NCBI GenBank assembly: GCA_021604105.1
Contig: BQIW01000023.1
Span: 1 to 53,527, forward strand
Direction: 5' to 3'
DNA from: Nitrospirales bacterium
GTDB lineage: Bacteria; Nitrospirota; Nitrospiria; Nitrospirales; UBA8639
Length of the DNA: 53,527 nucleotides
Shown here piece by piece: positions 40,715-51,404 of this stretch. How positions within the stretch are numbered: position 1 is the first letter of the stretch; each line of letters begins with the position of its first letter. The notes under the pieces are model-generated. The model saw only the letters and a program-made list of their open reading frames with translations, made no database searches and was not told the DNA's origin. The position numbers and the translations under genes are program-made.

Positions 40715-42261
40715 TCGATCGTTGCTGGCGGTTTTGAGCTAATGTCATACACTACACGGTTGATCCCTTGTACTTCATTGATAATCCGATTGGACATTTT
40801 GCCCAGCACCTCTGGTGGAATCACGCCCCAGTCCGCAGTCATGCCGTCCGTACTGGTGACGGCACGAATGGCGATCACGGATTCGTAGGTCCGTTGGTCG
40901 CCCATGACTCCCACGGTTTGGATTGGCAACAAGACAGCGAACGATTGCCAGATGATTCTTGATAGCCCAGCTCGTTCAATTTCGTCACGAACAATGGCAT
41001 CCGCCTCACGAAGAATGGCTAGACGCTGGGCGGTTACGGAACCAATGATGCGAATTGCTAAGCCTGGACCGGGAAAGGGTTGTCTCCAGACAATATCCTC
41101 CGGCAGACCCAATTCCAATCCCAATTGACGAACTTCATCTTTAAACAACTCTCGAAAGGGCTCAATCAGTTTGAATTTCATGCGCCTCGGCAAACCACCG
41201 ACATTATGATGTGTTTTGATCGTGGCCGATGGTCCTTTCACACTTAGACTTTCGATCACATCCGGATATAGTGTCCCCTGAACGAGAAATTTAACCTCGC
41301 CTAAAGCTACCGCTTCCTGTTCAAAAACTTTAATGAATTGGCGCCCAATGATTTTTCGTTTGCGCTCTGGGTCTGTTGTGCGTCCGAGTGCTGTCAGAAA
41401 TGTGTCTCCATGGTCTGCAATACGAACCTTCAGATGATAGGCGGAATCGAAAGTCGTTTGTAATTGTGCTACCTCATTTTTTCGCATGAGGCCATTGTCA
41501 ATGAAGAGGCAGGTCAATTGGTCTCCGATGGCCCGGTGGGCCAGAACAGCCGCCACTGTGGAATCCACTCCCCCGCTGAGTGCGCAAATGACCTTGCCGT
41601 TTCCGACAGTCTGCCGGATTTTTGTCACAGCCTCTTCAATGAATGAACCCATTGTCCAGGTTGGCTCGCAGTGGCAGATATGGCGTGCAAAATTTTGAAG
41701 AATCGTTGCCCCGTGATGAGTGTGGATGACTTCAGGGTGAAACTGGATACCATAGAGCTGTTGCATACCTTTGGAGGATTTCATGGCGGCGATCGGGGCA
41801 TGAGTCGTATGGGCGATCACATGAAATCCAGGTGGAAGCTGTTGAACCGAATCCCCATGAGACATCCAAACGGGAAAGGCGCTTGACGGCTCTAGGCCGA
41901 GAAATAAATTCGTGTTGTCGTCAATGGTCAGATCGGCTCGACCGAATTCACGATGAGGTGTGGGGTTGACGGTTCCGCCACATTGATGAGCGAGCAATTG
42001 CATCCCATAGCAGATCCCTAAAATGGGTATGGCAAGATCAAAAATTTGGCTATCAATTTTCGGGGAATGAGCCTGAGATACGCTGGCCGGTCCACCAGAG
42101 AATATAATTCCTTTGGGGTTATAGTTCAGGATATCCTGAACCGTCGCCTGTGAGGGAAGAATAACGGAGAAAATATGGAATTCGCGTATCCGCCGTGCAA
42201 TGAGTTGCGTATACTGCGATCCAAAATCCAGAATGACAATGGTATCGTGGTGCGAGTGCAT
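40705..42261 (-). CDS. guaA: GMP synthase (glutamine-hydrolysing)
   Basis: A 518-residue enzyme making GMP from XMP, ATP and glutamine. The class I glutaminase domain has the nucleophile Cys84 in GICYGMQLLAHQCGG and the His-Glu pair in YGIQFHPEVIHT. The ATP pyrophosphatase P-loop is ALSGGVDSTVAA, followed by FIDNGLMRKNE. The C-terminal dimerisation domain ends DISSKPPATIEWE, as in nearly all GuaA. It is 58 nt downstream of guaB on the same strand, so the two late GMP-synthesis steps are co-transcribed. Confidence 0.97.
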   Translation of the reverse strand: MHSHHDTIVILDFGSQYTQLIARRIREFHIFSVILPSQATVQDILNYNPKGIIFSGGPASVSQAHSPKIDSQIFDLAIPILGICYGMQLLAHQCGGTVNPTPHREFGRADLTIDDNTNLFLGLEPSSAFPVWMSHGDSVQQLPPGFHVIAHTTHAPIAAMKSSKGMQQLYGIQFHPEVIHTHHGATILQNFARHICHCEPTWTMGSFIEEAVTKIRQTVGNGKVICALSGGVDSTVAAVLAHRAIGDQLTCLFIDNGLMRKNEVAQLQTTFDSAYHLKVRIADHGDTFLTALGRTTDPERKRKIIGRQFIKVFEQEAVALGEVKFLVQGTLYPDVIESLSVKGPSATIKTHHNVGGLPRRMKFKLIEPFRELFKDEVRQLGLELGLPEDIVWRQPFPGPGLAIRIIGSVTAQRLAILREADAIVRDEIERAGLSRIIWQSFAVLLPIQTVGVMGDQRTYESVIAIRAVTSTDGMTADWGVIPPEVLGKMSNRIINEVQGINRVVYDISSKPPATIEWE

Positions 42262-50047: not shown

Positions 50048-50345
50048 GGGATCCAGGATTGGTATGAAGGCCAATTGAGGCAATGTGTGCTTGAGATTTT
50101 GGTCATCGGTTGCTATTCACCATTCGTGTTGGTTCTTGATGCTGTGCAATGTATGAACTTGTCAAGTTTTCTCATATACACGCAAGGGATTTTCTTAATT
50201 CCCCTTGACTCGGATCCGATAACACTTCCTGAGAGATAGAGGGCGAAGGGGAAGAGGGATTCGAAACTCCAAGGCCGGCAGTTGATTGGGGAAACCTCCA
50301 AACCCCACCACTTTCATGAGGTTGTAATGATCAAATAACGTATTT

Positions 50346-50443
50346 AACAGGTGACAAGGGCAAACTATCCGTGAGGGTAGGGCGCAAAGCCAAGAAACCC
50401 TGAGAACGTTGTTGTTTCAGGGTTCGTCTGGTTACCGAACTGT
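50346..50443 (+). ncRNA. c-di-GMP-I (GEMM) riboswitch aptamer
   Basis: The conserved blocks of the GEMM-I aptamer are present and in order: AAGGGCAAACT (50355-50366), the first hairpin ATCC-GTGA-GGGT with a GNRA-type tetraloop, GGCGCAAAGCC (50380-50391), a second hairpin AAACCCTGA/TCAGGGTT (50396-50423) and GGTTACCGAACTGT (50430-50443). The G that contacts one guanine of c-di-GMP and the C that contacts the other lie in the first and last blocks. The P1 helix is short (ACAG with CTGT). It lies 83 nt upstream of the sigma-factor start codon. Identification is by eye from consensus. Confidence 0.88.
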
Positions 50444-50472
50444 GCTGGTAGATCCATGCGTTCGTTCATGCG

Positions 50473-50500
50473 CCCATTCCCTGGAATTGGGAGCTTTTTC
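50473..50500 (+). terminator. Terminator in the sigma-factor leader (expression platform)
   Basis: CCCATTCC (50473-50480) and GGAATTGGG (50483-50491) form a stem with one bulge, followed by AGCTTTTTC. It lies between the c-di-GMP aptamer and the start codon, where the expression platform of a transcriptional riboswitch would be. Confidence 0.6.
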
Positions 50501-50525
50501 TTGGTCACCCTGGAAAGGCCAAAGT

Positions 50526-51404
50526 ATGGACGAAGACGCACCACCTTTCATAGAGACAGCAGTTGGTATTAAAGAACGCGACTCGTCTCACCTCGGTTCG
50601 GTTAGTCCTGACCAAGCAGACCATGCGGAGGTATGGGGCCAGCTTGATCAGGAACATGTTACCCGGATTTTATTGGAGTTTCTCCCGACCATTCGTCGGA
50701 TGGCTGGAATTATGGCGTCCAGGAATCCCTTTTCCCTGGATGTCGAGGATTTGACGAGCGCAGGGGCTATGGGGTTGTTGTCGGCATTGAAGCGCTACGA
50801 TCCAACACGGGATATTAAGTTTCGCACATTTGCCGAATATCGCATTCGCGGCATGATGTTAGATGAAATTCGATCGATGGATTGGGTTCCTCGATCTGTT
50901 CGATCTCGCCGCGATCAAGTGCGACATATTGTTGAAGAGCATCTTCAAAAAAATGGGGAGCCGCCGACTACACAGGAATTGGCCACGCTGTTGGGCGTTT
51001 CCATTGAGGAAATAGAAGGAGTGGGAGGGTGTGATCCTCGTTTAATTAGTCTGGATGAGCCGGTTGGGCAGGGAGAAGGTGAATGCACCCTCCGTGATGT
51101 CTTACCGGATGTTAACCATCTGGACCCTTTTGTTGCCTGCGCGGATGCAGAAATGAAAGCGGCATTGTCAGCGGCGCTCCAGACATTATCGGAACGCCAG
51201 CAAGAGGTGCTTCAATCGTATTATCATGCCGGATTGACAATGAAAGAAATTGGTCGGCAGATGGGGCTGACAGAGTCTGGGGTTTGTCGGGTGCATTCGG
51301 GTGCACTTCGACATCTACGCATGGAGTTGACACGTATTGAAGATGGGGGACCCAGTGCTCCTCGACCTAGGAATTTACGAAAAACGCGCGTTTTCAGTGA
51401 CTAA
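50526..51404 (+). CDS. fliA: FliA-type (sigma-28) RNA polymerase sigma factor
   Basis: A 292-residue sigma-70-family factor. Region 2 has LDVEDLTSAGAMGLLSAL and FRTFAEYRIRGMMLDEIRSMDWVPRSVRSR, the FliA hallmark. Region 3 includes GEPPTTQELATLLGVS, and region 4 (LSERQQEVLQSYYHAGLTMKEIGRQMGL) has the helix-turn-helix. FliA directs late flagellar and motility genes. The frame is open upstream to 50409, but that overlaps the riboswitch; ATG 50526, with GGAAAGG upstream, is the credible start. A 30-residue Arg/Pro-rich tail follows region 4. No flagellar genes are nearby. Confidence 0.92.
   Translation: MDEDAPPFIETAVGIKERDSSHLGSVSPDQADHAEVWGQLDQEHVTRILLEFLPTIRRMAGIMASRNPFSLDVEDLTSAGAMGLLSALKRYDPTRDIKFRTFAEYRIRGMMLDEIRSMDWVPRSVRSRRDQVRHIVEEHLQKNGEPPTTQELATLLGVSIEEIEGVGGCDPRLISLDEPVGQGEGECTLRDVLPDVNHLDPFVACADAEMKAALSAALQTLSERQQEVLQSYYHAGLTMKEIGRQMGLTESGVCRVHSGALRHLRMELTRIEDGGPSAPRPRNLRKTRVFSD

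Follow-up and report, generated by a model that had tools for sequence, protein, structure and literature searches.

A FliA paralogue of marine Nitrospirales preceded by a class-I c-di-GMP riboswitch, probably of the transcription-terminating type

As a rule, c-di-GMP acts on sigma28 regulons by way of proteins or by controlling an entire flagellar operon. In C. difficile the c-di-GMP-I riboswitch Cd1 (Cdi-1-3) is an OFF switch that silences the flgB operon, including sigD (PMC6366702). The locus described here resembles Cd1 in having a class-I aptamer, a transcription terminator and a FliA-family sigma factor that is expected to be silenced by c-di-GMP. It differs in that sigD is the flagellar sigma factor and lies within a 23-kb flagellar operon (PMC6366702), whereas the present gene is a stand-alone paralogue outside the flagellar cluster, with its own switch and a sigma28-type promoter. 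In the RsiG-(c-di-GMP)-WhiG system of Actinobacteria the messenger arms an anti-sigma protein (PMC8325347). There too a FliA/WhiG-family sigma factor is turned off by c-di-GMP, as is predicted here, but the effector there is a protein that targets the sigma protein, whereas here it would be an RNA element in the mRNA of the sigma gene.

Two further systems are related in part. Bdellovibrio has a FliA attack-phase regulon, and merRNA, a c-di-GMP riboswitch RNA, takes part in its phase switch (PMC3627812). FliA-type promoters extend beyond flagella in both cases; however, a single FliA is discussed in Bdellovibrio, no conserved gene follows merRNA, and no FliA promoter is indicated for it. In P. 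putida FliA drives the c-di-GMP phosphodiesterase BifA and so lowers c-di-GMP (PMC5300878). A sigma28 factor placed upstream of a c-di-GMP phosphodiesterase is a shared feature, although in our case the link is predicted from a promoter only, and no riboswitch is described on the P. putida sigma gene. The literature searched, an incomplete set in which absence is weak evidence, contained no c-di-GMP riboswitch dedicated to a duplicated FliA and no general link between riboswitch genes and sigma28-type promoters, nor did it contain a relevant paper on c-di-GMP riboswitches in Nitrospira. Through a dedicated and conserved riboswitch on such a FliA duplicate, located away from the flagellar genes, c-di-GMP would reach a sigma factor directly by way of RNA. 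The attachment biology of marine Nitrospirales is little understood; the genus concerned includes two single-contig genomes, and the conserved module is easily testable.

The DNA analysed (the window) comprises 53,527 nt of Nitrospirales bacterium GCA_021604105.1 (BQIW01000023.1). It makes up contig C23 in full; the genome (G000) has 4.9 Mb in 217 contigs. The genus (g1) and its family (f1) are marine bacteria placed in Nitrospirales, the named relatives being NPIRA and other Nitrospirales and Nitrospira MAGs. The elements of the leader and its gene, all on the + strand, are as follows.

50195-50222, +, sigma28-type promoter TTAATTccccttgactcggatCCGATAA (-35 TTAAYT, N15, -10 CCGATAA), conserved in the g1 leaders examined
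50317-50340, +, conserved block ATGAGGTTGTAATGATCAAATAAC just upstream of the aptamer, present in all leaders of the genus with upstream sequence
50347-50443, +, c-di-GMP-I aptamer including P1 (cmscan; P1 by reading the flanks)
50380-50386, +, aptamer core GGGCGCA, the proposed 5′ strand of the antiterminator, complementary to 50469-50475
50436-50464, +, alternative hairpin CGAAC (50436-50440) / GUUCG (50460-50464), competing with the 3′ strand of P1
50469-50475, +, UGCGCCC, the 5′ arm of the terminator and alternative partner of the core
50470-50502, +, intrinsic terminator (hairpin 50470-50494, U-tract 50495-50502)
50501-50522, +, small hairpin UUGGUC/GGCCAA enclosing GGAAAGG (50512-50518), the Shine-Dalgarno sequence, from the sequence
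50526-51404, +, FliA/WhiG-family sigma factor, a FliA paralogue of 292 aa (Pfam, TIGR02479, tree)

The sole Rfam match in the window is to RF01051 (c-di-GMP-I, GEMM-I), found by cmscan at 50349-50439 (+) with 59.7 bits (E 3.1e-9) against a gathering score of 35, and covering the model in full (1-87). The preliminary description had read a full GEMM-I aptamer here and had named a covariance-model search as one check; this significant match bears it out. Helix P1 is formed between 50347-50353 and 50436-50443 (ACAG..UG / CG..CUGU, from the sequence) and is conserved in an alignment of 23 orthologous leaders (A3), in which the aptamer core is invariant across genera. The aptamer alignment contains CAAGGGC, GCAAAG and UACCGA; in the numbering of Vc2 it has G at position 20, which discriminates between c-di-GMP and cGAMP, and A47 and C92 are conserved. 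The element is a member of the RF01051/RF03167 (c-di-GMP-I, c-di-GMP-I-GGC) group, its orthologues in other genera matching RF03167 best, and its sole oddity in the Rfam alignment is a gapped tetraloop-receptor side of P3. By its sequence, the segment 50347-50443 forms a complete GEMM-I aptamer, for which c-di-GMP would be the ligand. The host presumably makes c-di-GMP, since six GGDEF proteins are encoded in the genome. Several GEMM-I aptamers of G002 and G001 (L057, L076, L159) have A at the G20 position (AAAAGCAAAC), the hallmark of cGAMP-type GEMM-I; tandem FN3 copies in G001 differ here, one having G and one A, and the L102 sigma leader has A too.

The sigma gene starts with ATG at 50526, 86 nt past the Rfam match. 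Upstream of the riboswitch and sigma gene lie lptF and lptG, and on the 3′ side are a convergent SleB-like cell-wall hydrolase gene and then genes for a hypothetical protein and a thioredoxin. The protein has the Pfam Sigma70 regions r2, r3 and r4 and passes TIGR02479 (FliA_WhiG) with about 199.2-199.9 bits (cut-off 189.6); it fails both PRK06986 (NCBIfam FliA, 190.5 bits, cut-off 201) and the WhiG equivalog PRK06288 (177.9 against 343). Two TIGR02479 members lie above the cut-off in the genome, the other being the canonical FliA at C1:52427-53095 (264.8 bits), which shares its contig with flagellar rod genes and the FlgM gene. A genome search placed the flagellar rod-protein genes on C1 only. 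The two sigma factors are 44% identical, and in a tree 26 paralogues and ten FliA proteins of the genus fall into separate groups, each supported at 100/100 as one side of a branch. Region 2.4 of the paralogue is nearly identical to that of FliA, while the region 4.2 helix reads LTESGVCRVHSGAL in the paralogue and VTESRICQLHAQAM in FliA, the changed positions being fixed in the FliA sequences compared. Retention of region 2.4 with alteration of region 4.2 is expected to leave the -10 preference similar and to change that for the -35 element.

From these sequence comparisons the window gene is a paralogue of FliA and not the flagellar sigma factor, because the higher-scoring FliA and the flagellar genes sit on C1; an assignment as flagellar FliA was rejected on these grounds and on its separate place in the tree. 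A FliA-type sigma factor behind an aptamer and a terminator, as first described, thus agrees with the TIGR02479 result, and the arrangement is conserved across the family. Its identification as the late flagellar sigma factor has to be given up, that role belonging to the protein on C1. The earlier remark that no flagellar genes are nearby holds for all of C23, and its fallback suggestion of targets that are elsewhere or non-flagellar fits better, the best candidates being the paralogue's own gene and the STAS/HD-GYP/kinase operon of the chemotaxis region. In all g1 paralogues region 2 is preceded by some 40 aa of variable sequence, and region 4 by its C-terminal side adjoins a conserved tail, RP[KR]NLRK, which the FliA alignment does not show. 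No relative of the window sigma factor was found on viral contigs.

Of 21 genomes of the genus, 20 have the paralogue, each with an RF01051 match just upstream of it; in the family it occurs in 31 of 49 genomes. At nine of ten loci from other f1 genera the aptamer is found (RF03167/c-di-GMP-I-GGC); the tenth, L123, has no match and keeps the sigma gene behind lptG at the same locus as L101. L102, a locus from a further member of the family, has RF01051 before its sigma gene. Outside the family, an order-wide search at E 1e-50 returned canonical FliA-like proteins only and no paralogue, and on this basis the paralogue is confined to one family of Nitrospirales. Within f1, GEMM-I and paralogue occur together in 31 genomes, the paralogue alone in none, GEMM-I alone in two, both incomplete (83% and 64%), and neither in 16. 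The independent evidence for co-occurrence is limited, because the 16 double negatives are mostly from one small-genome genus (g2). A perfect co-occurrence fails across the order, where family f3 has GEMM-I without the paralogue. There is mostly a single GEMM-I per genome in f3, located in most sampled cases before a flagellar rod-type protein. At L195-L204 (f3, Nitrospira-type) this protein is small, and some of these loci have TCAAGTCT-N11-GCCGATAC at -11; a few precede proline/serine-rich exported proteins instead.

Between the aptamer and the start codon the sequence forms an intrinsic terminator with the stem GCGCCCA/UGGGAGC. A terminator hairpin had been proposed at 50473-50500; it is real, but lies a few nucleotides from that position, at 50470-50494 with its U-tract at 50495-50502. 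The stem is paired in 96.3% of cells of the 23-leader alignment, with changes on both sides at four of seven pairs, and when the 3′ partner is slid the pairing falls to 21-57%. In G000 itself there is a G.A mismatch between 50472 and 50492 (GGGAGC here, GGGCGC in the relatives) that is specific to this genome, and unlike in the relatives the U-tract is interrupted by C. Folding gives a dG of -10.3 for this terminator compared with about -15, and the closest relative, G018, has it in intact form, as does the G001 leader. The switch may be leaky here because of the mismatch and the broken U-tract, or these may be a sequencing error. L122 has the aptamer and no obvious form of terminator. Stems similar to UUGGUC/GGCCAA are observed directly after the terminator in relatives too.

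The 5′ arm of the terminator is complementary to the core of the aptamer. The 7-bp pairing of core (GGRCGCA) and arm is found in 95.7% of cells of the 23 leaders, compared with 26-57% in slid registers. In one genus the core is GGACGC, with U for C in the arm in four of five sequences; this covariation concerns one pair and, being limited to one genus, represents few independent events. Contiguous complementarity between core and arm is 7-8 in g1 and the nearest neighbouring genus, and at most 5.5 in 17 background terminator-like hairpins of the genome. In ligand-free partition-function calculations on transcripts ending in the terminator loop, which are predictions from one energy model rather than measurements, the probability of core-arm pairing is at least 0.48 in 20 of 28 leaders. 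The leaders thus contain an antiterminator pairing that uses aptamer sequence and is mutually exclusive with the terminator, though its probability is low in six of the 28, where it is near zero (L030, L031, L032, L119, L120 and L121). In the ligand-free minimum free energy structure of the truncated window leader, the core-arm helix closes a multiloop and GUUCG captures the strand CGAAC from the 3′ side of P1.

We consider it probable that the leader of the FliA paralogue is a transcription-terminating c-di-GMP OFF switch, with the sigma targets and feedback loop proposed below. The aptamer, the terminator, their conserved mutually exclusive pairing, the paralogy and the conserved promoters are read directly in the sequences. 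At low c-di-GMP the core GGGCGCA would pair with the arm UGCGCCC while the 3′ strand of P1 is held in the CGAAC/GUUCG hairpin, so that the polymerase would read through and the sigma paralogue would be made. At high c-di-GMP the aptamer would be locked, freeing the 5′ arm for the terminator and silencing the sigma gene. The predicted OFF direction follows because a ligand-locked core releases the 5′ arm for termination.

The opposite direction, in which the c-di-GMP-stabilised aptamer prevents the terminator and high c-di-GMP turns on the sigma factor for a sessile or adhesion programme, would have the sigma factor transcribe riboswitch-controlled adhesins and Flp pilins. The other GEMM-I genes of the genus do encode FN3/FG-GAP surface proteins and Flp pilins, which are expected to be on at high c-di-GMP, most of them have sigma28-type promoters, and class-I ON switches such as Bc2 are known (PMC6366702). 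Yet the sole conserved alternative pairing found is that of the core blocking the terminator, by which ligand favours termination, and no conserved anti-antiterminator was seen in the leaders examined, so we judge an ON switch to be improbable. That the aptamer is a chance resemblance, or a riboswitch in decay, would fit the weakened terminator of G000. It deserves very little credence against the above-threshold matches in all 20 genomes of the genus with the gene and a core that is invariant across genera; for chance origin the conservation amounts to a refutation.

The promoter TTAATTccccttgactcggatCCGATAA, from which transcription of the leader would start near 50229, has an almost constant place, at roughly -125 to -135 relative to the aptamer, in all g1 leaders with enough upstream sequence; two of the g1 leaders have TTCATT at -35, and related forms occur in other genera. 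Across 21 genomes TTAAYT-N15-CCGATAA has 44 matches, compared with four for the reversed control, and nearly all of these fall into four recurring groups. One group lies before the sigma gene. A second, with its promoter at C1:34506, lies before a STAS gene on C1 that adjoins cheB/cheD-like genes; behind it come the genes of an HD-GYP-type protein (C1:32540-33808, DUF3391 + HD_5) and of a hybrid histidine kinase. The remaining two groups precede a membrane microprotein of 25 codons and the gene of an exported protein. A genome search for sigma-28 promoters had been put forward in the preliminary description; with the loose pattern TAA-N17-CCGATAA it shows no overall excess (12 in G000 against 19 in the reversed control), and this pattern was rejected as a predictor of the regulon. 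Enrichment is limited to the strict form and to sites before aptamers. The FlgM gene on C1 has a TAAAGTTT-type promoter. We infer that promoters of the TTAAYT class belong to the paralogue. Canonical FliA may read them instead, because Bdellovibrio FliA uses TTAAG-N16-CCGATA (PMC3627812). At G000 C15:40278-40305 (L232) the TTAAYT-N15-CCGATAA site is a few nucleotides before the conserved microprotein MEGFFINIVFFAWIISMILLAIRRI, next to a pyruvate-kinase-like gene, and the transcript would be almost leaderless. The block at 50317-50340 reads GAGGT..ATAAC, or GAGGTG..TAGAATAA in other species, and may be a further promoter or a site bound by a protein.

G000 has three GEMM-I elements besides that of the window, preceding genes identified by eye from the sequence as those of Flp pilins, an FN3-like protein and an FN3/FG-GAP-like surface protein. 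Across the genus, most GEMM-I genes other than the sigma gene (adhesins, Flp pilins and response regulators) have upstream sigma28-type sites, scored against TAAAGTTT-N11-GCCGATAA. These lie near -100 where an FN3 adhesin or Flp pilin is encoded, near -83 in the FG-GAP group and near -10 in the response regulators. The adhesin promoters have the canonical TAAAG -35 element. The excess over 51 upstream-of-gene controls has Mann-Whitney p-values of 1.8e-6 to 9.5e-4 in every paralogue-bearing genome tested; these are descriptive, given a score chosen post hoc, a small background and some loci that are tandem duplicates. At ten loci of f3, without the paralogue, there was no significant enrichment upstream of GEMM-I (p 0.15).

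The paralogue would keep the -10 specificity of FliA (CCGATAA) with an altered -35 helix, and most likely reads TTAAYT promoters. It would drive its own gene in positive autoregulation and turn on the STAS/HD-GYP/hybrid-kinase operon beside cheB/cheD. That the same rare promoter variant precedes both suggests autoregulation as well as feedback on c-di-GMP. If the HD-GYP protein degrades c-di-GMP, a double-negative loop would result, favouring an all-or-none low-c-di-GMP state, and together with autoregulation this would make a compact bistable switch between motile and sessile life in marine Nitrospirales. The activity is uncertain because the motif is HDVGY and not the usual HDxGK. A wider reading, which we offer tentatively and hold to be doubtful, makes the duplicated FliA a hub that has an OFF switch on its own mRNA, drives itself and the phosphodiesterase operon in a bistable manner, and through sigma28-type transcription feeds most other GEMM-I genes (adhesins, Tad/Flp pilins and response regulators). 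A single messenger would then gate one regulon twice, at its sigma factor and again at every mRNA.

Two other accounts of the network leave the OFF switch as it is. The paralogue might be a second flagellar sigma factor, for example for a subset of late genes, acting on FliA promoters, so that the riboswitch is ordinary repression of motility and only the targets differ. It co-occurs with canonical FliA, g2 genomes being without both, its region 2.4, for the -10 element, is the same, and in C. difficile sigD is under a GEMM-I OFF switch. Such a role is nonetheless unlikely in view of the differences in region 4.2 at helix positions fixed in FliA, the TAAAGTTT-type promoter of flgM compared with the TTAAYT-type promoter of the sigma gene, and the non-flagellar synteny with lptF-lptG. 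Alternatively, canonical FliA could transcribe from the sigma28-type promoters before the paralogue and before the remaining GEMM-I genes, and the paralogue would have unrelated targets. To this we assign a chance only slightly short of even: the canonical -35 of the adhesin promoters, the occurrence of TCAAGTCT-N11-GCCGATAC at some GEMM-I genes of Nitrospira s.s., a family without the paralogue, and the global role of FliA in Bdellovibrio (PMC3627812) are set against the p-value of 0.15 for the ten f3 loci, compared with 1.8e-6 to 9.5e-4 where the paralogue is present, and against the co-occurrence within f1 (31 with both, none with the paralogue alone, two incomplete genomes with GEMM-I alone, 16 with neither).

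Folding of the adhesin and pilin leaders suggests for the FG-GAP group only that folding of the aptamer frees a purine-rich candidate Shine-Dalgarno sequence, which is not clearly that of the predicted start. GEMM-I elements also precede Flp pilin and TadG-like genes at L167 (G013 C35:39930-40007 and 41181-41261) and L168, and Tad pili in the genus are probably under c-di-GMP riboswitch control.
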